DNA from: Alphaproteobacteria bacterium | GTDB taxonomy: Bacteria > Pseudomonadota > Alphaproteobacteria > ATCC43930 > CGMCC-115725 | Direction: 5' to 3' | DNA: 64,000 nt | Assembly: GCA_028871455.1 (NCBI GenBank) | Contig: JAGWNF010000003.1 | Location: 186,001 to 250,000, forward strand | In this document: positions 50,701 to 61,760 of the stretch, in pieces | Position numbering within the stretch: position 1 is the stretch's first letter | How the letters are laid out: each line of letters opens with the position of its first letter | Made by a program: the position numbers and the translations under genes | The notes under the pieces: model-generated | Databases searched by the model: none | What the model was told of the DNA's origin: nothing | What the model saw: the letters and a program-made list of their open reading frames with translations, nothing else

Positions 50701-50790
50701 GGATGGGTGGCCGAGCGGTTTAAGGCACCGGTCTTGAAAACCGGCACACGGGCAACCGTGTCGTGGGTTCGAATCCCACCCCATCCGCCA
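50701..50790 (+). tRNA. tRNA-Ser(UGA)
   Basis: A class II tRNA. The acceptor stem GGATGGG (50701-50707) pairs with CCCATCC (50780-50786), followed by G and an encoded CCA. The anticodon loop CTTGAAA sits on a CCGGT/ACCGG stem and gives anticodon TGA (serine, UCA). There is a long variable arm, as expected for serine, and the T arm has GGGTTCGAATCCC. The gene is intact although an integrase lies 137 bp downstream, so the element regenerates its 3' end on integration. Confidence 0.97.
50768..50790 (+). other. Probable attachment site (attL) in the tRNA-Ser 3' end
   Basis: Tyrosine integrases of this type usually recombine in the T arm and acceptor end of a tRNA gene, and one lies just downstream here. 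The 3' part of the tRNA from the T loop to CCA is therefore the likely core. I looked for a second copy in the rest of the window and saw none, so the right boundary must be beyond position 64000. Confidence 0.6.
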
Positions 50791-50902: not shown

Positions 50903-50932
50903 CATGGGTATAGGCATGGGTAAGCCATGGGT
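50903..50932 (+). repeat. Three CATGGGT direct repeats at the integrase start
   Basis: The heptamer CATGGGT occurs at 50903-50909, 50915-50921 and 50926-50932, 12 and 11 bp apart, that is about one helical turn. The third includes the integrase start codon. Such spacing suits cooperative binding of a small protein, for example an arm-type or Xis-like site, and could let the element control its integrase. Confidence 0.5.
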
Positions 50933-52168
50933 CAGGTCATCGCGAAGCTGAGCGCGCTCCAGGTGGCGCGGTTGAAAGAGCCCGGCATGTATGCCGATGG
51001 CGCCGGGCTCTATCTTCAAGTCACCGGCGACGGACGCGACCGCGTCACCAAATCCTGGATATATCGCTACGGCGTCAACGGACGCACCCGCGACATGGGC
51101 CTCGGGTCCGTATTGGTGATCGGGCTGGCCGCCGCACGCGAAAAAGCGGCCGAGTGCCGGCGCATCCGCGACGCAGGGAAAGATCCAATCGATGTGCGCA
51201 AAGCTGATCGCGCCGCTGCGGCATTGGCTGCGGCGAGCGCGATGACCTTTAAGCAGGTCAGGGAAAAATTCATTGCCGCGAACCGCGCCGACTGGCGAAA
51301 CCCTAAGCACGCGGCGCAGTGGGAAACGACGTTGGAGCGCTACGCAGAGCCGGAGATTGGAGCGGTGTCGATCCAGGCGATCGATGCCGGGCTCGTCCTT
51401 AAAGTGATTGAGCCGATCTGGCGTCAGATACCCGAAACCGCGAGCCGGCTCCGAGGGCGAATCGAGGCAATCATTGATTTTGCGACGGTGCATGGCTGGC
51501 GCACCGGCGAGAACCCGGCGCGTTGGCGCGGGCATCTTGATAAGATTTTGCCGGCGCCGACGAAGGTGCGCGCCGTAAAACACCACGCTGCGCTTCCCTT
51601 TGACGAGCTGCCGGCTTTCCTCGCGGATCTACGGAATCAAGGCGGCGCTGCCGCGCGCGCACTCGAATTTACGATCCTAACCGTTGCGAGGACCAAACAG
51701 ACGATCGGCGCCCAGCCGTCGGAGGTTAGCGCGGCGTCGAAGATATGGACGGTGCCCGGCGAGCGCATGAAGGCCGGGAAAGAGCACCGCGTGCCCCTCG
51801 CCCCGCGCGCCCTCGAGCTGGCAGGCGAAGCTGCAGCTGGCTACCTGTTCCCTGGACCGGGCCGGGATCAGCCGCTCAGCAATATGGCGATGACGATGGT
51901 GCTGAGGCGAATGGGGCGAGACGACATAACGGTTCACGGCTTCCGCTCGACGTTTCGCGATTGGGCTGCGGAGCGCACGAATTTCCCGAGCGAGGTGGTC
52001 GAAATGGCGTTGGCGCATGCGATTGACGACAAGGTCGAAGCTGCGTATCGCCGCGGCGATCTTCTGGAGAAGCGGACGCGGCTCATGAATGCGTGGGCAA
52101 ATTTTTGTGCAACGGCGCCGGCGTCGAAAGGTGACAACGTCGTGAGACTCAAGGCGAGCGCCGGCTAG
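50927..52168 (+). CDS. int: Tyrosine-type site-specific integrase (P4-like, DUF4102 N-terminus)
   Basis: The 413-residue integrase inserts the element into the tRNA-Ser gene. The N-terminal DUF4102-like domain has LKEPGMYADGAGLYLQVTGD and SWIYRYGVNGRTRDMGLGSV, then a SAM-like core-binding domain, then the catalytic domain with the first Arg in ILTVARTKQTIGA, HGFRSTFRDWAAE (His-x-x-Arg), the fifth residue in EMALAHAIDDKVE, and the tyrosine nucleophile in AAYRRGDLLEKR. All catalytic residues are there, so it should be active. It points away from the tRNA into the element. Three CATGGGT repeats lie at its start. Confidence 0.95.
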   Translation: MGQVIAKLSALQVARLKEPGMYADGAGLYLQVTGDGRDRVTKSWIYRYGVNGRTRDMGLGSVLVIGLAAAREKAAECRRIRDAGKDPIDVRKADRAAAALAAASAMTFKQVREKFIAANRADWRNPKHAAQWETTLERYAEPEIGAVSIQAIDAGLVLKVIEPIWRQIPETASRLRGRIEAIIDFATVHGWRTGENPARWRGHLDKILPAPTKVRAVKHHAALPFDELPAFLADLRNQGGAAARALEFTILTVARTKQTIGAQPSEVSAASKIWTVPGERMKAGKEHRVPLAPRALELAGEAAAGYLFPGPGRDQPLSNMAMTMVLRRMGRDDITVHGFRSTFRDWAAERTNFPSEVVEMALAHAIDDKVEAAYRRGDLLEKRTRLMNAWANFCATAPASKGDNVVRLKASAG

Positions 52169-52261: not shown

Positions 52262-52924
52262 ATGCAGCCGATACCGCCTATACCGCATGAATGGCGGCAA
52301 TTCGTACCCGCCGCGCTTCTCGATGCGCACGATGCCGCCGTGCGCGATTGTGAGATCTCGGCCGCAAGAAACGGGCGCGTGGTAAGGATGGGCCGGTGGC
52401 TCAATGTCCCGGTGGCGGTCGTCGCAAGGGATTCGACGCCAGAAGGCCGCGTGTTGCGGACGATGGAGGCAGTCGCGCGAGAACTGATCGAACAGTTGCA
52501 ATCTGAAAGGCTCATCGCCCTTGGTCGCGACGACAAGCACGTTGGGGAACTCAAGCGGATCTATGCATCTGCGTTTCGAGGATCCGTCCCCGTTCACCGG
52601 CATGGCTTGGGTTCTGTAGAGAGATGTTTTACTGCGGCTATCAATTTTGCTGATCGCAGCTTTTCATTCTCCGACCGCAACCCGCCCATTTTTCATGACG
52701 TGCGGCTTGAGCGCCCGGGCAATGCGGAGGAGAGACGGCCGCGCGCTCGGCGTGAAAATCCTATGCTCACAAGGTTGAAAGAGTACGTCTCGGCCCGGGG
52801 CAACCTATCGAATCGCCGGCACGTGTATCGGACGATTCTCAAGGAAGCCGCCAAGGAAGAAAGCGATTCAGGCTGGCACCCGAAGACATTCGATAGGTTC
52901 TGGCGCGAGCTCGGCCTTTCTTAA
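52262..52924 (+). CDS. Unknown mobile-element protein
   Basis: I do not recognise this 220-residue protein. It begins MQPIPPIPHEWRQFVPAALL after a good Shine-Dalgarno (GGAGGGCGCA). The middle contains NGRVVRMGRWLNVPVAVVAR and a helical part EGRVLRTMEAVARELIEQLQ. The C-terminal 60 residues (LTRLKEYVSARGNLSNRRHV, TILKEAAKEESDSGWHPKTF) are basic and helical, as in DNA-binding tails. Between integrase and the HTH gene it takes the place where phage regulators or excision helpers usually sit, but no helix-turn-helix is clear. Confidence 0.65.
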   Translation: MQPIPPIPHEWRQFVPAALLDAHDAAVRDCEISAARNGRVVRMGRWLNVPVAVVARDSTPEGRVLRTMEAVARELIEQLQSERLIALGRDDKHVGELKRIYASAFRGSVPVHRHGLGSVERCFTAAINFADRSFSFSDRNPPIFHDVRLERPGNAEERRPRARRENPMLTRLKEYVSARGNLSNRRHVYRTILKEAAKEESDSGWHPKTFDRFWRELGLS

Positions 52925-53034
52925 GCGTAGGAATTCACTGGTCTCCGAGACTCATTTCCTCATTGAGGATTTGAGTTGCGGACAACTCGCGATCCAGTCG
53001 CGTACACCCGGACGGCAATTTCGCGGAGCCGTCC

Positions 53035-53220
53035 ATGGAGCATTCTGGCAAAGTTTCCTATTCGATCCCCGAAGCTGTTGACGCCACCGGCCTCAGCCGG
53101 TCGACCCTCTACGAGGCGTTGAGAGACGGCAAGCTCGTCGCGCGAAAATGTGGCGCGCGGACGGTGATCGAAGAGATCGAGCTCCGCCGCTTCATCAACG
53201 CGCTTCCTAAGGCGTGTTGA
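53035..53220 (+). CDS. Excisionase-like helix-turn-helix protein
   Basis: The 61-residue protein is a MerR/excisionase-type winged helix: VSYSIPEAVDATGLSRSTLY forms the helix-turn-helix and ALRDGKLVARKCGARTVIEE the wing. Such proteins (AlpA/Xis-like) bend DNA for excision or control integrase and replication genes. It stands 10 bp before the next small gene and about 370 bp before the first large palindrome, so it is one candidate for the protein that reads the element's palindromes. Confidence 0.8.
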   Translation: MEHSGKVSYSIPEAVDATGLSRSTLYEALRDGKLVARKCGARTVIEEIELRRFINALPKAC

Positions 53221-53230
53221 GGGGGCGGCG

Positions 53231-53548
53231 ATGGCGATGCCCGAACGTGATAACGGTGCCGGCCTCGCCGCGGCACTTGAGGTCCTCGCCGATGAGATGA
53301 GTGCCTTCGCCGCGCACCACTGGCGATCGAGTTTTCCTGCCGGCGTGGTCGAGGATGCCAACGAGATAGCGGACGCCGCAGGGAACCTCGCAAACGGTAT
53401 CCGCGCAACGTCGCGCTTCGGCGCACACTTCGGAGCCGACATCGCTCAAGAGCTCATCGAGTTTTCGCGCCGCTGGCAACAGTTCGGCGCTCGGATCAGC
53501 GCATATCTCCATGACTGGCCAGGCGACATCTCGCCCCGAGCGCGCTGA
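53231..53548 (+). CDS. Unknown small helical protein
   Basis: This 105-residue acidic protein is not one I know. It is predicted mostly helical (GLAAALEVLADEMSAFAAHH, DANEIADAAGNLANGIRATS, GADIAQELIEFSRRWQQFGA). A Shine-Dalgarno GAGGGGG lies before the ATG and the gene follows the HTH gene by 10 bp. Both are probably early genes of the element. Confidence 0.65.
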   Translation: MAMPERDNGAGLAAALEVLADEMSAFAAHHWRSSFPAGVVEDANEIADAAGNLANGIRATSRFGAHFGADIAQELIEFSRRWQQFGARISAYLHDWPGDISPRAR

Positions 53549-53590
53549 AATCCCCATGGAGCCCAGAACGTCCGCTGCGACCGGCAGGTC

Positions 53591-53614
53591 GCCGATGGCC
53601 AATTGGCCATCGGC
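53591..53614. repeat. Perfect 24-bp palindrome A
   Basis: A perfect palindrome with outer GCCGATGGCC and centre AATT, so that the core is GGCCAATTGGCC. It lies in the leader of the phage-type ATPase gene, about 60 bp before the chosen start, and 45 bp centre to centre from palindrome B. No T run follows, so it is not a terminator. Confidence 0.85.
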
Positions 53615-53635
53615 CAGAGGCACTCCCTCAACCTT

Positions 53636-53653
53636 GGGTGCCAATTGGCACCC
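53636..53653. repeat. Perfect 18-bp palindrome B
   Basis: The perfect palindrome GGGTGCCAATTGGCACCC lies 18 bp before the ATPase start codon and shares GCCAATTGGC with palindromes A and C. Its place over the ribosome-binding region suggests a role in controlling that gene. Confidence 0.85.
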
Positions 53654-53671
53654 GAACCAGGCGACCTTCCG

Positions 53672-55351
53672 ATGAGCGAGGAAGAGATCCGAAGCACCAT
53701 CGCCGAGGCGCGGACTCCAACCCATGCGGAGCTCCCCGAGCACGAGCGCGCCACGGTCTCGCTAACGGCCGCAAAGGCAGCTCGCCGGCACGCGGCGCGA
53801 GCCGAACGCGATCCCGATCTCCCCGATATTCGCGTGACCGACGGCGAGCTGCCGCGCGTCGTCGACGAAGCCGAGACCGCGCTGCTGAAGAGTGGCCAGG
53901 GGCTATACCAGCGCGGCGGGATGCTGGTGCGGCCGTACATCGAGCGCGTGCCCTGCGCCGCCGGCAGCATGACTCTCAGCTACCGAATGTCGCGCCCTTC
54001 AATTCCTCACCTTCGCGAATGCATGACGCGGAGCGCAAACTTTCTTCAATTTGACGCTCGATCGTCCGATTACGTCCTCCGTGATTGCCCGCGTGACATC
54101 GCCGAGGCCTACGCAGCTCGAGAAGGTCAATGGAAGGTCCCGCCACTCCGGGCCGTGATCACCGCTCCGACCCTTCGCCCTGACGGTTCGCTTCTCAATG
54201 TGCCCGGCTATGACGCGCATACCGCCCTGCTCTTCGATCCGTGCGCGCAAAGCTTTCCCGCCGTCTCGGGAACGCCGACGCGCGATGACGCGCTCGCCGC
54301 GATTCGCTATCTGCGCGAGCTGATCGCCTCCTATCCGTTCGTCGATCCGCAAAGCGAAGCGGTCGCGCTTTCCGGCATCCTGACGGCGACGGTAAGACGC
54401 ACGATCGGCACGGCGCCGATGCACGCCATTACGTCGCCGGTGCCAGGATCCGGAAAGACGCACCTGGTCGATGTCATTTGCTCGATAGCGACGGGACAGC
54501 GCGCGAGCGTGATTTCTCAGTCGCGCCTCGAGGAAGAAACTGAGAAGCGCATTGCAGCGGCCATCATCGCCGGCGACCCGTTCATATCCCTCGATAACTG
54601 CACGGCGCCCGTCGGCGGCTCACTTCTATGTGTCGCTGTCACCCAAGAGGCCGTGCGCATTCGCATCCTTGGCCAATCGTTTAATGCGGACGTGCCGAGC
54701 AACGCCATGATCTTCGCAACGGGCAACAACCTGCAGATCGGCGACGACATGGCCAGGCGCACGCTGATGTGCGCCCTCGATCCGCAGCTCGAGCGGCCTG
54801 AGCTGCGCGAATTCGAAAACGATCCGCTCACGCGCGCGACGGCACAGCGTCCGCGTTACATAGCCGCCGCGCTGCTGATTCTTCGTGCCTTCCATTTCGC
54901 CGGCCGGCCGGCGCGCGCGCCGCAACTCGGCTCGTTTTCCGAGTGGTCCAGCCTGGTCCGAAACGCCCTCCTCTGGCTTGACCAGGCCGACCCGGCGGAG
55001 ACGATGGAAAGAGCACGCGAAGCCGACGCCAAGCTTCGCGCGCTCGGCGCCGTGATGGACCAATGGGAACAGATCCCGGTGCTGATGGAGCGGCGCAAGA
55101 AGGTTTCCGAGATCATTGCGGTCGCATCCGAAGAGGAAGGCATGCCGGGCGGCTTGCGCTTCCGATACCCCGACTTTCGCGACGCTCTGATGGCGGTCGC
55201 TGGCGAGGGCAATTCTGGCGTCAACAGCCGCCGTCTGGGGAAGTGGCTGGCGGCCAATCGGGACCGCGTGTGCAACGGGCGGCGCATCGTTGCAGACGGC
55301 ACGCATGCCGGGATCGTTCTCTGGAAACTCGAATTGGTCGAGTCGCCATGA
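53672..55351 (+). CDS. Phage/plasmid-type replicative ATPase (primase-helicase-like)
   Basis: A 559-residue protein with an uncharacterised N-terminal half and a central ATPase domain. Walker A is SPVPGSGKTHLVDVICS (about 257-273), Walker B FISLDNCT (about 305), then IFATGNNLQIGDDMARRTLM (about 347), which combines a sensor Asn and an arginine-finger region as in AAA+/SF3-like helicases of mobile elements. The C-terminus (KWLAANRDRVCNGRRIVADG) looks like a winged-helix primase tail. It probably starts replication of the excised element. The start ATG gives MSEEEIRSTIAEAR; a TTG at 53603 lies inside palindrome A and is less likely. Confidence 0.75.
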   Translation: MSEEEIRSTIAEARTPTHAELPEHERATVSLTAAKAARRHAARAERDPDLPDIRVTDGELPRVVDEAETALLKSGQGLYQRGGMLVRPYIERVPCAAGSMTLSYRMSRPSIPHLRECMTRSANFLQFDARSSDYVLRDCPRDIAEAYAAREGQWKVPPLRAVITAPTLRPDGSLLNVPGYDAHTALLFDPCAQSFPAVSGTPTRDDALAAIRYLRELIASYPFVDPQSEAVALSGILTATVRRTIGTAPMHAITSPVPGSGKTHLVDVICSIATGQRASVISQSRLEEETEKRIAAAIIAGDPFISLDNCTAPVGGSLLCVAVTQEAVRIRILGQSFNADVPSNAMIFATGNNLQIGDDMARRTLMCALDPQLERPELREFENDPLTRATAQRPRYIAAALLILRAFHFAGRPARAPQLGSFSEWSSLVRNALLWLDQADPAETMERAREADAKLRALGAVMDQWEQIPVLMERRKKVSEIIAVASEEEGMPGGLRFRYPDFRDALMAVAGEGNSGVNSRRLGKWLAANRDRVCNGRRIVADGTHAGIVLWKLELVESP

Positions 55352-55696
55352 TGCTCGGCAGTGGGTTTGGTGGGATTTACCCCCCCTTTTTAATCTACGC
55401 GCGAAAAGTGTCATCGACTCGTAAAGTGACACTTTGTGGGTATAGAGCCAAAAAGGCCCTTCAAAGCCACCAAACCCACTGCGACCGATTCGGGCACCAC
55501 CCTCCCTCACTCCGGTCTAACGCTCGATCGAAAATGGCCAATTGGCCATTTTGGCGACTGCGCCCGATGGGGTGCCCTCCTTACAAACATTTGGGTCCTT
55601 CCGGCGACCATCCGGAAACGCGGGCATTGCGCGCGCGCGTTGTTTCGTCGCCGCGCTATAAAAAACTGGGCTCGTGTTTTTGTTATTGCTGCTGGC
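55352..55696. repeat. Non-coding region with nested inverted repeats (origin candidate)
   Basis: No gene is seen in these 345 bp. They hold a 15-bp perfect inverted repeat (CAGTGGGTTTGGTGG at 55359-55373 with its complement at 55467-55481), inside it a second 9-bp one (AAAGTGTCA at 55405-55413 and TGACACTTT at 55427-55435), a C7T5 tract next to an AT-rich stretch at 55381-55396, and then palindrome C. Directly behind the ATPase gene, this is a natural place for the element's replication origin. The right end must contain the promoter of the terminase-to-tail operon. Confidence 0.65.
55531..55552. repeat. Perfect 22-bp palindrome C
   Basis: A perfect palindrome with AAAA/TTTT ends and the core TGGCCAATTGGCCA. 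It shares GGCCAATTGGCC with palindrome A and lies 145 bp before the start of the terminase-to-tail operon. One side has TTTT, but the symmetric ends and shared core fit a binding site better than a terminator. Confidence 0.85.
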
Positions 55697-56251
55697 ATGC
55701 GTAGCGCGCTGGTCAACAAGCGCGAGCTCGCGACGCGCATTCTCAAATGCTCACTGCCGACGATCGATAATCTGCTCGCGCGCCATCCCGATTTCCCGGT
55801 TGAGCAGCGCGGCGATCTCGGGCGCTCGTGGATCTTCGATCCTCAGCGTGTCATCGACTTTCTGAAGGCGAAGCGCGATGAAGAGGAAGCGGCGGCCATC
55901 GAGCGCGCCGAGTTTTTCTCGCAATTTGATTTCGGTTTAGAACCGCCGGAGGAGATCAAGGGACTGTCGCCGGCGCAACGCCTGGCGATGGTGCGGGCGA
56001 AACGCGAGGAACGACGGCTTGCCATCGAGACTGGCTTCCTCGCCGACGTCGCGAAGCTTCGCGCCACGCTCGAGCCGGTGCTGCGAAAGCACGCTATCTT
56101 TTTTGACACGCTGCCGGCGAAGCTCGCGCGCGAGCTGAACCTGCCGGAAGAACTCATGCTCGCCCTGCGGCGCGAGCTGGACGCCGAGCGTCGCCAATTC
56201 GTGCAAGCGATCGGCGAAGCGCTCGCGGCCAACCAGGACGCGGTGAGCTGA
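55697..56251 (+). CDS. Phage terminase small subunit-like protein (Nu1/DUF1441 type)
   Basis: The 184-residue protein begins MRSALVNKRELATRILKCSL and continues PTIDNLLARHPDFPVEQRGD and GRSWIFDPQRVIDFLKAKRD, the winged-helix DNA-binding domain of Nu1-type small terminases that recognise pac or cos sites. A long helical region follows (LSPAQRLAMVRAKREERRLA to AFIFFDTLPAKLA-like oligomerisation helices). There is no strong Shine-Dalgarno, and the open frame begins earlier at 55436, but that part is not protein-like. No large terminase gene is found near it. It heads a run of genes that overlap by 1-4 bp up to 61414. Confidence 0.78.
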   Translation: MRSALVNKRELATRILKCSLPTIDNLLARHPDFPVEQRGDLGRSWIFDPQRVIDFLKAKRDEEEAAAIERAEFFSQFDFGLEPPEEIKGLSPAQRLAMVRAKREERRLAIETGFLADVAKLRATLEPVLRKHAIFFDTLPAKLARELNLPEELMLALRRELDAERRQFVQAIGEALAANQDAVS

Positions 56252-58081: not shown

Positions 58082-58683
58082 CCGATCACAAGCAACAGCT
58101 CGCGGCTGGCCTGGGTGCCGCACGCGATAAACTTGAGCGGCTCACGGCCGAAGATGCCGCGCTCGAGCGGCGCGCCTCGAAACTGTCGGCCGAGGTCGCC
58201 GCATCCGATTCCTCGGATGCCGAGGCGCTCGCCACCGTGCGAGGGGGTGCCCCAATGCGGAAAGCGCCCAAGCCGAACGATAGCGCGCGGCACGAACTCG
58301 ACACCATCACCGCAGCCCGTCGTGCGCTCGCCGCGGAAATCGCAACCACACAGCAAACAGTCGGATCGCTATCCCGCGATCTGGACCGCGCGACGATGCG
58401 CGAAATCGGCGCTCGCGTGGTTGCGAACGGCGCGCGCGTCGACAGGCTTCTTGTGGAACTCGACAACGCGATCGCGGAGAGCAATCGCCTCTACGAAGAT
58501 GCGATGGCTGATCGGCTGGCGTTTCGGCTCGGATTGCAAAGCGATCTGCTGGATCACCTCTGCGGCTCGTTCCGGATCGGCAACGCAATGTCACACAGGG
58601 TCCGCGACCTGGCGCGGGCGCCTTTCGGCGAGCGGCATCGCATCGAGGACCTCGACAGGATGTTTTTTAAACGGCTCGACTAA
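58078..58683 (+). CDS. Unknown coiled-coil protein of the phage-like operon
   Basis: The 201-residue protein begins MTDHKQQLAAGLGAARDKLE, overlaps the previous stop as ATGA and has CGGAGGG as Shine-Dalgarno. Two coiled-coil stretches are clear (LERLTAEDAALERRASKLSA; ELDTITAARRALAAEIATTQ), followed by a helical C-terminus with DRLLVELDNAIAESNRLYED. Proteins of this kind between packaging and tail genes are often scaffold or tail-assembly factors, but no family assignment is possible. Confidence 0.65.
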   Translation: MTDHKQQLAAGLGAARDKLERLTAEDAALERRASKLSAEVAASDSSDAEALATVRGGAPMRKAPKPNDSARHELDTITAARRALAAEIATTQQTVGSLSRDLDRATMREIGARVVANGARVDRLLVELDNAIAESNRLYEDAMADRLAFRLGLQSDLLDHLCGSFRIGNAMSHRVRDLARAPFGERHRIEDLDRMFFKRLD

Positions 58684-59765
58684 TGCCCGACGACGGCGAT
58701 CTCACGCTCACGGTCAATTCGCAGCGGCTAAACGGCTGGACTTCGGTGCGGGTGACCGCCGGCGTTGAGCGGTGTCCGCGGGATTTCGAGATCGGCATGA
58801 CCGAGCGCTATCCCGGCGAATTCAGCTCGGTCATCGTGCGCCCAGGTGATCCGTGCGAGGTTCGCATCGGCGGTGACCTGGTCGTCACCGGCTACGTTGA
58901 CCGCTTCATGCCCGTCCTCGACGCCGGCCAACATGCGATCCAAGTCGCAGGCCGTGGCACGTGCGGGGATCTGGTCGACTGCGCCGCGCAATGGCCAAGC
59001 AACCAGGTCGTCAACGCGACGATCCTGTCGCTCGCTACGAAACTCGCCGCGCCCTACGGAATCCAGGTCGAAGCGATCGGCGACATGGGAGAGCCCGTGC
59101 CGCAGATCAACATCATCTGGGGTGAAACCGCCTATTCGGTCATCGAGCGCGTCGCGCGTTATGAGGCGATCCTGGTCTACGAATCACCGGAGGGGAAGCT
59201 CGTCCTCGCGCCGATCGGCAGCGCGAGCCATGCGAGCGGCTTCGCGCAGGGCAAGAACGTCCAGCGTGCGGCGCCGTTCTTTAGCTGTGATCAGCGATAC
59301 AGCGAATATGTCGTGAGGACGCTGGCTTTCGATCTCAACGATATCGCTGGCACCGGCGATATCCTCGAGACGGTCGTCGACGACGCCATGGCGGCGCTCA
59401 AACGTCGCGATGGCTCGCCGCGTGAGCGCGTCCGCTACATCATCGCCGAGCAAGGCGATTACTACTCGTGGCCGATCACGAAAAAGCGCGGGCAGTGGGA
59501 AGCGGCGCGGCGCGCTGGCCGATCGTTCCGCGTCGAGCTCACAGCCGATAGCTGGCGCGACAGCGCGGGCAAGCTCTGGACGCCAAACCAATTCGCACAG
59601 GTCGAGCTGCCGGCGCTGAAATTGCCGTCGGTCAATTGGCTGATCGGCGAGGTCAGCTTCATCCGAGACGCGCAGGGCACGCGCGCCGACGTCACGCTGA
59701 TGCCGCCCGACGCATTCAAGCCCGAGCCGTTCCTGCTGCAACCCCTACTGCCGGATGTCCAATAA
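58683..59765 (+). CDS. Phage tail/baseplate protein, Mu gpP-like
   Basis: The 360-residue protein fits the gpP/gpD-like baseplate hub family (Mu gp44 type): an N-terminal beta domain with LTLTVNSQRLNGWTSVRVTA and EFSSVIVRPGDPCEVRIGGD, VVTGYVDRFMPVLDAGQHAI, then the conserved NIIWGETAYSVIERVARYEA and YESPEGKLVLAPIGS, and a C-terminal part with FRVELTADSWRDSAGKLWTP. In Mu this protein sits at the tip of the contractile tail. It is joined to its neighbours by TAATG overlaps on both sides. Confidence 0.85.
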   Translation: MPDDGDLTLTVNSQRLNGWTSVRVTAGVERCPRDFEIGMTERYPGEFSSVIVRPGDPCEVRIGGDLVVTGYVDRFMPVLDAGQHAIQVAGRGTCGDLVDCAAQWPSNQVVNATILSLATKLAAPYGIQVEAIGDMGEPVPQINIIWGETAYSVIERVARYEAILVYESPEGKLVLAPIGSASHASGFAQGKNVQRAAPFFSCDQRYSEYVVRTLAFDLNDIAGTGDILETVVDDAMAALKRRDGSPRERVRYIIAEQGDYYSWPITKKRGQWEAARRAGRSFRVELTADSWRDSAGKLWTPNQFAQVELPALKLPSVNWLIGEVSFIRDAQGTRADVTLMPPDAFKPEPFLLQPLLPDVQ

Positions 59766-61414
59766 TGGCGAACGAATTCAAAATCACGATCAGCGCCGCC
59801 GACAAGGCAACGTCCGTCATCAAGGGCGTCAATGCGGCGGTCGCCAAGGTGACGCGGCCGATCGCCGACATCGGCAAAGCCTCGAAAGCCATTGCCAAGG
59901 AGGCCGGTTTCGACAAGCTCGGGACCGCTATTGGCAAGGTGCGAAGCGTCGCCGACCAAGCGGCGAAATCGCTCGGTGTCATGCGGAGCCCGATCGCCCT
60001 CCTGGGGGGCGCCGGCACGCTCGCCGGCGTGGCGGCCCTGGCCGATGAGATCGGCCGGTACGGGATCGAGCTGACGAACACCGCCGCCGCGGCCGGGACA
60101 TCGGCGGCGCAGCTCTCGCGAATGCGCGGCGCCGCGCAGCTCGCCGGCGTCAGCGGTGCGACCGCAGCCTCGGCCCTCACTAATCTTAATAACGTGCTCG
60201 AGGACGCACAGTTCGGGCGCAACATGCTGGCGCTGTCGCAGCTGAACAAAGAACATATCTCGCTCCACAAAAACGCCCGTGGCCAGGTCGACACCATGCG
60301 CGCGCTCTACGACATACTCGACGCCATCTCGCGACAGAAAACCGCGGGCGCTCAGAACAAGCTCGCATCAATTTTCGGCGTCGAGGGGTTGCTGACTGCA
60401 GACGTTCGAAGCCGCGGCGCGGCCGCCCTTCGCGAGCGGGAACGGCTGGCACAAGCGACGGGCGAAGCGTTGTCGCCGGCGCAGACTGCTCAGGCAAACG
60501 CCTTCGGCCGCTCGCTCGCCGGCGTCAGATCGGCGGTCGCCGGCGTCGGCAACGCGATCGAATTCGATCTCATGCCCTGGATGCAGCCGCTCGCCGACGG
60601 CTTCACGAAATGGGAGATGCGGAATCGATCGACCGCAGCCCACATGACGGAGATCGGGGGCGCCGCCGGCATCGCCGCCGGCGGCATCGCTGCGCTGTCG
60701 GGCGCGCTAGCGGGCCTCGGCGCGATCGGCGCGACGCTGGCGACCGGCGGCATCGCGCTTGCAGTTGGCGGTCTTGCTGCAGCCGCTGTCTACGGCGCAA
60801 AGAAGCTTACGGACGTCAACCGCGATCTCGCAAAGTCTGGCGTGATACTTGATCCGGAAATGGGTCTCATTCCGATGCCGGGCGGCGGCGGCTCGACGGC
60901 GCCGGCGTCGCCCGGCGGCCGCGCGCCACGTGGCATCCGGCAGAACAACCCACTCAACCTGCGCAGCTGGGGAACCGCGCCGATCGTCGACGGCTATGCA
61001 TCGTTCGCAACGCCGCAGGAAGGCATCGACGCTGCGGCAAAACAGCTGCTGCTCTATCAGGGACGCGGAATCGACACCCTCGCCGGCATCGCGTCGACCT
61101 GGGCGCCGGCGGCCGACCACAACAACGTAGGCGCCTATGTCGCGGACCTGTCGAGACAGACGGGCTTCGGCGCGACGCAGCACCTCGATCTTCGCGACCC
61201 GACCGTCCTCGCCTCGGTCCTGTCGGCGATGATCCGGCACGAAAACGGTCAGGACCCCTATGGCCGAAGGATGATCGACGCCGAGGCGCAGAAAGTCACG
61301 GTCGAGGTTCAATTCCACAACGCACCGCCGGGCACAACGGCGACAGCGCGCACCGCCGGCGCGCGCGTTCCCTTGGCGGTGCATTACTCGATGCCGGTTG
61401 GGGAGATGCCGTAA
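59765..61414 (+). CDS. Short phage tape-measure protein with lysozyme-like C-terminus
   Basis: A 549-residue protein. The N-terminal 290 residues are helical with phage tape-measure features (FKITISAADKATSVIKGVNA, AAGTSAAQLSRMRGAAQLAG, TMRALYDILDAISRQKTAGA). Two hydrophobic segments follow at about 298-345 (GIAAGGIAALSGALAGLGAI, ATLATGGIALAVGGLAAAAV), which could cross a membrane. After a Gly/Pro linker comes a lysozyme-like domain, about 390-495 (GIRQNNPLNLRSWGTAPIVD, GYASFATPQEGIDAAAKQLL, DPTVLASVLSAMIRHENGQD), known from virion-associated murein enzymes. Tape length scales with tail length, so a short tail is implied. It ends before a strong terminator. Confidence 0.8.
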   Translation: MANEFKITISAADKATSVIKGVNAAVAKVTRPIADIGKASKAIAKEAGFDKLGTAIGKVRSVADQAAKSLGVMRSPIALLGGAGTLAGVAALADEIGRYGIELTNTAAAAGTSAAQLSRMRGAAQLAGVSGATAASALTNLNNVLEDAQFGRNMLALSQLNKEHISLHKNARGQVDTMRALYDILDAISRQKTAGAQNKLASIFGVEGLLTADVRSRGAAALRERERLAQATGEALSPAQTAQANAFGRSLAGVRSAVAGVGNAIEFDLMPWMQPLADGFTKWEMRNRSTAAHMTEIGGAAGIAAGGIAALSGALAGLGAIGATLATGGIALAVGGLAAAAVYGAKKLTDVNRDLAKSGVILDPEMGLIPMPGGGGSTAPASPGGRAPRGIRQNNPLNLRSWGTAPIVDGYASFATPQEGIDAAAKQLLLYQGRGIDTLAGIASTWAPAADHNNVGAYVADLSRQTGFGATQHLDLRDPTVLASVLSAMIRHENGQDPYGRRMIDAEAQKVTVEVQFHNAPPGTTATARTAGARVPLAVHYSMPVGEMP

Positions 61415-61760
61415 CGAGATCGGCGCCGCCGCGCCTTCCCTGGTCGCGCGTTCCGGCCGGGATCATCCGTCCTCGAGAAGCTGCGGCGCTGTCATGGCAG
61501 CTCGAGAAAGGGCGGAAGAACGCACGGCCAAGCGGCCCGGTGAGCTAGGCACCGGGCCGCTTCCGGTTCCAGACGCTGCCATCTGGACGAGTCAGGGTAC
61601 CAATTGGCGCTCTGGCGCCGGCAGCCCTCGACAGCGCAAGCCTGCGAGCCAAGCGCGATGCCGGCTACAGTTGAATGAAGGTCGCACCATCGGCTGGCGA
61701 CATCGCCCTGCCCCACATAGTATCGACGGCTATGGCTCACTGAGTTCGAGGCCGCGCGCC
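61415..61760. other. Spacer between the phage-like operon and the long cargo-type gene
   Basis: No gene is likely here. An open frame from an ATG at 61494 continues into the next gene, but its 89 extra residues are Arg/Pro-rich, cross the terminator hairpin and do not look like protein. The spacer holds the terminator at 61530-61562, a fourth CCAATTGG core at 61600-61607, and presumably the promoter of the next gene. Confidence 0.5.
61530..61562 (+). terminator. Strong hairpin after the tape-measure gene
   Basis: A perfect 13-bp stem AAGCGGCCCGGTG (61530-61542) with its complement at 61550-61562 and a 7-nt loop. On the plus strand only TTCC follows, so it is a T-poor terminator or an RNA-stabilising stem; it lies 116 bp after the tape-measure stop and separates it from the next gene. 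Confidence 0.75.

Follow-up and report, generated by a model that had tools for sequence, protein, structure and literature searches.

The 64-kb window analysed here, from the alphaproteobacterial contig JAGWNF010000003.1, carries an integrated element of about 17.7 kb that resembles a phage-inducible chromosomal island (PICI). The element is inserted in a tRNA-Ser gene, with a 15-bp copy of the tRNA 3′ end at its far side, and it encodes an integrase, an AlpA-type protein, an orphan protein of 105 residues and a helicase-type replication protein (Rep, the ATPase of an earlier note on this DNA), followed by a probable replication origin and the terminase small subunit gene, terS (Table 1). Two perfect palindromes, P1 and P2, lie in the leader of the Rep gene, and a third, P3, lies between the origin and terS. 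We consider here whether these palindromes may serve as operators through which the satellite controls its own replication and late genes.

Table 1. Features of the element around palindromes P1–P3, in window coordinates
Feature	Positions	Strand	Remarks
Attachment core in tRNA-Ser 3′ end	50776-50790	+	15-bp copy outside the window at L008:4466-4480
Tyrosine integrase	50927-52168	+	phrog_1
int-alpA RNA, Rfam RF02996	52177-52243	+	52.5 bits against a gathering score of 35.8; between integrase and AlpA-type gene
AlpA-type HTH_17 protein, 61 aa	53035-53220	+	HTH_17 E 3.9e-9; Phage_AlpA only below cutoff
Orphan 105-aa protein	53231-53548	+	
12-base motif, inverted, GGCGACCTGCCG	53582-53593	-	adjoins P1, overlapping its first three bases
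P1, perfect palindrome, 24 bp, GCCGATGGCCAATTGGCCATCGGC	53591-53614		Rep gene leader
P2, perfect palindrome, 18 bp, GGGTGCCAATTGGCACCC	53636-53653		Rep gene leader; exact 18-mer twice in L315
Asymmetric flank GGCGACCTTCCG	53660-53671	+	adjoins P2, ends at Rep ATG
Helicase-type Rep, 559 aa	53672-55351	+	phrog_29234, E 2.7e-178; no Pfam match
Probable replication origin, inverted repeat of iterons	55358-55482		arms 55358-55373 and 55467-55482
P3, perfect palindrome, 22 bp, AAAATGGCCAATTGGCCATTTT	55531-55552		between origin and terS
Partial flank copy GGCGACT	55553-55559	+	adjoins P3; one mismatch to GCGACYT
Terminase small subunit (terS)	55697-56251	+	phrog_57

The earlier note had described the three palindromes and placed them between genes, and both their exact coordinates and this placement are confirmed: with Rep read from its ATG at 53672 and terS from its ATG at 55697, all three fall outside likely coding regions, and it is longer, mechanically called open reading frames (ORFs) that overlap them. 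No other perfect palindrome in the window is as long as any of these, the next in rank being five of 16 bp each. Base composition alone would be expected to yield about 0.54 palindromes of at least 18 bp per 64 kb, 0.04 of at least 22 bp and 0.011 of at least 24 bp. P1 and P3 belong to one type, with 16 bp in common (ATGGCCAATTGGCCAT), and P2 represents a second type (GGGTGCCAATTGGCACCC).

The octamer CCAATTGG occurs four times in the window against 0.67 expected, a count reached by one of 100 shuffles, and 27 times in the 3.0-Mb genome, or about 0.57 times per 64 kb, in line with the earlier estimate of less than one. One of the four, at 61600-61607, had been proposed as a further member of the family. 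We dropped it, as it is palindromic over only 8 bp, fits the background rate and looks like chance; it sits within a mechanical ORF (61398-64358). The sequence GCCAATTGGC has seven genomic sites, three of which are P1–P3; the other four are palindromic across 10 bp only, as against 24, 18 and 22 bp at the locus, which answers the concern that such palindromes might be equally frequent in the rest of the chromosome. A search of family genomes with the 12-mer core TGCCAATTGGCA, and thus not with the core of P1 and P3, found it once in the genome itself (G000, as P2), never in three other genomes of the genus (G034, G035 and G036), and at four other sites across 39 genomes of the family, where the palindrome reaches 12 bp only. 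That the core is missing from the three related genomes, and that the genome has no other extended copy, argues against an ordinary host regulon. P1–P3 are thus several closely similar extragenic dyads, in two sequence types, that are missing from the background, as the sites of an operator family should be.

A second element with the same site came to light when viral_contigs, a collection of viral sequences, was scanned with GTGCCAATTGGCAC. Among the 80 of 117 matching stretches that were listed was part (L247) of the 16.7-kb IMG/VR contig 3300017823_000043 (IMGVR_UViG_3300017823_000043; hereafter L315). It carries a palindrome, GGGTGCCAATTGGCACCC, that is identical to P2, as well as TCGGGTGCCAATTGGCACCCGA, so that the exact 18-mer occurs twice in all; over the two elements, the three copies of GGGTGCCAATTGGCACCC keep their arm sequence. 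The contig contains an integrated element, with copies of a tRNA-Glu end, each of 45 bp or more, marking its borders about 11.7 kb apart. This element encodes its own integrase (phrog_1), a D5_N/DUF5906 Rep, a tape-measure protein, a small HTH_17-like protein (which scored E 3.6e-5, short of the curated cutoff) and a protein related to the 105-aa one. Directly behind its Rep lies an origin-like repeat of three plus three iterons (TTGCGG units), and the first palindrome stands about 170 bp beyond this repeat, ahead of the tape-measure gene, a placement like that of P3. As a separate observation, L315:7006-12879 carries single structural genes, for a head-protease-like protein and the tape measure.

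In most other respects the two elements differ. We compared 12 window proteins with L315 by tblastn, a set that passes over several small ORFs and takes in, of the L008 genes, the 986-aa one alone. Only the 105-aa protein gave a clear match (38% over 98 aa, E 2.6e-21); the next best was a 37-residue stretch of the 986-aa protein, at E 0.018. BLAST detects no match between the Reps (best E 0.30) or between the tape measures (best E 3.4), nor does tblastn match the integrases to each other, although both are phrog_1; the iterons of the two elements differ too. Because L315 was found by its palindrome and not by the 105-aa gene, the shared site and the shared gene are independent facts, albeit from two elements only. 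The hosts appear to belong to about one genus: an AsnB encoded beside the L315 element is 79% identical to those of G000, G034 and G036 (with no match in G035) and at most 69% identical to those of other genera in the family.

The resemblance between the elements extends beyond the palindrome itself. Their best DNA match consists of P2 and 18 asymmetric bases to its right (window 53635-53671 against L315 9752-9716; 37 bp, 86%, blastn E 1.15e-5). This E-value is the only measure of the flank motif that was not chosen afterwards; the flank pattern GGCGACYTKCCG was defined after P1, P2, P3 and the L315 copy had been viewed, and its counts are post hoc. In the 18-kb stretch examined, GGCGACYTKCCG has just two perfect matches, at P2 and, inverted, at P1. 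L315 has two copies with one mismatch, one of which adjoins its first palindrome. The flanks of P3 (GCGACTG) and of the second L315 palindrome (GCGGCTT) each lie one mismatch from GCGACYT. Of 3000 positions drawn at random in the window, 15% have GCGACYT with no more than one mismatch at such a distance, and 1.0% have it exactly. None of the four other genomic GCCAATTGGC sites has GCGACYT within one mismatch. Across the 80 viral loci, an exact flank accompanies one of 83 GTGCCAATTGGCAC sites, that of L315, in a control skewed to AT-richer DNA, since only 25 of those sites belong to loci that exceed 55% GC. At the 15 sites of ATGGCCAATTGGCCAT in viral_contigs, an exact flank was never present and a one-mismatch flank was present once. 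Between P3 and terS, at 55599-55617, we also noted a dyad, TTCCGG-N7-CCGGAA, which overlaps GGCGACCATCCG (55603), a sequence one mismatch away from the flank motif.

Directly behind Rep, the inverted repeat encloses a 93-bp spacer of 45% GC, compared with 63.6% for the element, and within the spacer lies an inner dyad, AAAGTGTCA/TGACACTTT (55405-55413 and 55427-55435). Searches with Rep alignments returned 99 loci with related helicases, 51 in genome_contigs and 48 in viral_contigs; scans of the same collections with the single Rep protein had confirmed no relative. Loci that extend for fewer than 300 bp past the gene were removed, as were duplicates over the first 120 bp, and 85 sequences, including the window, were left. 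An inverted repeat scoring at least 14 occurs within 300 bp behind the helicase gene in 51 of these, the window among them, as compared with 1 of 850 shuffles, 0 of 85 in-gene controls and 2 of 79 stretches further downstream. Many of the arms are composed of two or three tandem units, whose sequence differs from element to element, and in 21 of the 51 the spacer has TGTCA followed by TGACA. One origin-bearing sequence is a contig of an archaeal metagenome-assembled genome (L073). According to Fillol-Salom et al. (2018; PMC6092414), the origin of a PICI lies 3′ of its replication initiation gene and consists of an AT-rich region between two sets of iterons; by this organisation 55358-55482 is probably the replication origin.

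Based on these comparisons, we propose, with a probability of roughly 0.5, that P1–P3 are operators of a dimeric regulator confined to a small set of phage satellites of this host lineage. The earlier note had suggested an operator family of this kind, and this is still the best reading; it is strengthened by L315, with its two exact 18-mers, one of them placed like P3, and by a genome that has no other long copy. In its favour are a core that is symmetric up to and including the centre, the recurrence of the complete 18-mer in both elements, and the placement in the Rep leader and past the origin. Each site presents a two-fold symmetric dyad, to which P1, P2 and the first L315 copy add an asymmetric part close to GGCGACYTKCCG. 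P1 and P2 stand as an inverted pair in the Rep leader, and P3 is placed between the origin and the terS and tail genes. Occupancy of the sites could then set the expression of Rep, and hence replication, and also the switch to packaging and tail genes. We infer that a protein binds P1–P3, that it regulates transcription and that the element encodes it; the candidates are the AlpA-type protein and the 105-aa protein, singly or together.

Several observations weigh against this proposal. Only two elements carry the sites. The conservation in sister elements on which the earlier note had made its reading depend is mixed, as there is one independent element on the one hand and, on the other, none of the 99 helicase-related loci has the palindromes, the 11 CCAATTGG sites there reaching a palindrome of 12 bp at most. 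Not all of these loci are complete or independent (at least five run on for less than 120 bp past the gene, others are cut earlier, and some contigs are in both collections), and with helicases at most 51% identical to the window Rep they include no close sisters. In L315, the first palindrome falls within a 155-aa mechanical ORF, and the second lies about 210 bp before the tRNA, near the attachment site and not clearly ahead of an operon. A scan of 52900-55900 for sigma-70-like promoters found none, with a model that may not fit this organism. Away from the palindromes, GGCGACYTKCCG with one mismatch occurs three more times in the element and once in L315, and the late definition of this pattern must be counted here as well.

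The candidate binders raise difficulties of their own. By tblastn, the window AlpA-type protein fails to match the HTH gene of L315. The 105-aa protein, for its part, is acidic, with an isoelectric point of 5.2 in the window and 4.7 in its L315 relative, and it is predicted to form three long helices (mean predicted local distance difference test score 80.6, from an alignment of two sequences), for which fold searches gave no match at E ≤0.001. Its L315 relative was the only one confirmed among 205 pattern stretches in viral_contigs; 385 genomes of the class yielded its own genome alone, and no relative was confirmed in the phage collection, Pfam or PHROGs. In the 39 family genomes its match to itself is the only credible one; two weak matches to a model of the protein (E 0.003 and 0.005) look spurious, as each has an in-frame stop and the stretches concerned lack these palindromes.

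The main rival holds that the dyads are origin-associated, partition-like or packaging sites, whose occupancy would govern how the excised satellite is replicated, segregated or packaged, and not its transcription. P3, which begins 48 bp past the origin, and the first L315 copy do both stand just beyond an origin, the palindrome is identical in two elements whose Reps and iterons differ, and single iteron hexamers occur close to both L315 palindromes (9709 and 14323), though the hexamer is found at many other places in L315. P1 and P2, however, are almost 2 kb away from the origin, in the Rep leader, and among the proteins scanned we found no convincing ParA or ParB, just one weak CbiA match to the L315 Rep (E 0.032). 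The presence of the origin structure in 51 of 85 sequences, as opposed to the palindromes in none of 99 loci, also counts against this rival, which we consider unlikely. The narrower suggestion in the earlier note, that the palindromes are part of the origin, is rejected on the same comparison: the probable origin lies inside the interval which that note had described, and P1–P3 are outside it.

A somewhat less probable alternative is that the palindromes act as hairpins in RNA or single-stranded DNA, that is, as stem-loops in the Rep and terS leaders with a role in attenuation, mRNA stability or priming. With AAUU as the loop, P1, P2 and P3 can fold into stems of 10, 7 and 9 pairs (-20.6, -13.5 and -11.3 kcal/mol). 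In folding comparisons the Rep leader gives a z of -4.8, its 93-nt core -6.7 and the 96 nt around P3 -4.2. The outer arms vary among the three and each remains complementary, as a hairpin would require, although this is partly by definition since perfect palindromes were selected. Both the folding and the arms speak against operators. On the other side, the AATT loop is self-complementary and identical in all, which a hairpin would not require, and in all three GGGTGCCAATTGGCACCC copies, across both elements, the arms agree in sequence, which is more than pairing alone would demand. P3 by itself is unexceptional in this respect, with 4 of 200 shuffles folding equally well or better (z -1.75). 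An intrinsic terminator, with a GC-rich stem followed by a T tract, was rejected: P1 and P2 have no T tract, and the terminator scan listed none of P1–P3. We regard as less probable again that the palindromes are bound by a protein of the host or of a helper phage, or that they are small mobile palindromic repeats which have spread in the host lineage. Both elements apparently come from about one host genus, as the AsnB comparison indicates, yet the distribution of TGCCAATTGGCA in the genus and family genomes runs counter to this view, as does the co-occurrence of the palindromic site with a shared gene of the element. Chance, or neutral local palindromes, seems a very poor explanation. Perfect palindromes of 16 bp evidently do arise by chance in the window, and even one of 18 bp would not be surprising; what would be surprising are palindromes that reach 22 bp and beyond, a core common to them, and an identical 18-mer with its flank in an independent element.

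A bolder proposal can also be made, which we think rather doubtful: a satellite-specific regulatory module may travel between replicons with unrelated Reps and origins. It would combine the composite palindrome (the dyad plus GGCGACYTKCCG) with the 105-aa protein, a small, acidic, three-helix protein of a new kind, as its reader or partner, and would link the expression of Rep with the origin and with the genes for packaging and tail. The two satellites have unrelated replicons but a site and one orphan gene in common, and these supply a cis target together with a candidate partner for it, through which the control circuit could be tested directly.

Short dyads reused within small replicons have precedents. 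In P2/P4, a short late-promoter dyad, TGT-N12-ACA, is reused before satellite and late genes and read by the activators Ogr and Delta, which satellite or helper encodes, much as proposed for P1–P3; Ogr and Delta differ in being zinc-finger proteins, and no search for such activators was made in the present element. ParB/parS and KorA/KorB likewise involve dyads, 12-18 bp long and perfect or nearly so, that are scattered across a small replicon. Their sequences differ from those of P1–P3, and no ParB or KorB match was found among the proteins scanned. The closest parallel in gene order is the replication module of Gram-negative PICIs, which shares the integrase, the AlpA-type regulator, Rep, the origin 3′ of rep and sometimes an adjoining terS; the window element adds tail genes, namely those for the tape measure and baseplate hub. 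The available portion of that account describes AlpA as an activator of its own expression and mentions no shared palindromic operator (Fillol-Salom et al., 2018; PMC6092414). In the accessible part of PMC10803314, the terms 'palindrom', 'operator' and 'inverted repeat' do not occur. Literature searches returned no occurrence of the strings GTGCCAATTGGCAC and TGGCCAATTGGCCA, no title on such a site, and no relevant paper on the int-alpA RNA. The origin type and the satellite type are already known, and the palindrome family with its flank and 105-aa partner appears to be a new variant of satellite control.

As judged from its gene content, the element is PICI-like: it has an integrase and a specific attachment site, an AlpA-type regulator, and an origin 3′ of rep by sequence organisation. 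We take the lack of phage tail genes to be a further defining trait of PICIs, and since a Mu-like baseplate hub (phrog_177) and a tape measure (phrog_2276) follow terS, before further genes that include the 986-aa one, we do not class the element as a PICI. The window proteins that were scanned, which are part of the full set, include no capsid, portal or large terminase. The single phage structural genes of the window, for the baseplate hub and tape measure, lie at 58683-61414.

Searches with terS, the baseplate hub and the integrase returned the window's own locus as the only one bearing the palindromes. The ATGGCCAATTGGCCAT sites in viral_contigs lie in 15 loci, all of which were checked for palindromes; the longest copies, of 34 bp, are in two loci of 35% GC (L123 and L126). 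Four viral loci of 35-47% GC (L123, L126, L221 and L260) have perfect palindromes of 34-36 bp with the same core, and L123 has four palindromes in all, of 32-34 bp and with various cores. Among the helicase-bearing loci, L119 has a parS-like palindrome, TGTTTCACGTGAAACA, about 1240 bp past the helicase match, and L078 carries two identical 16-bp palindromes, GTAGGGCGCGCCCTAC, at 353 and 1931, a possible operator pair.

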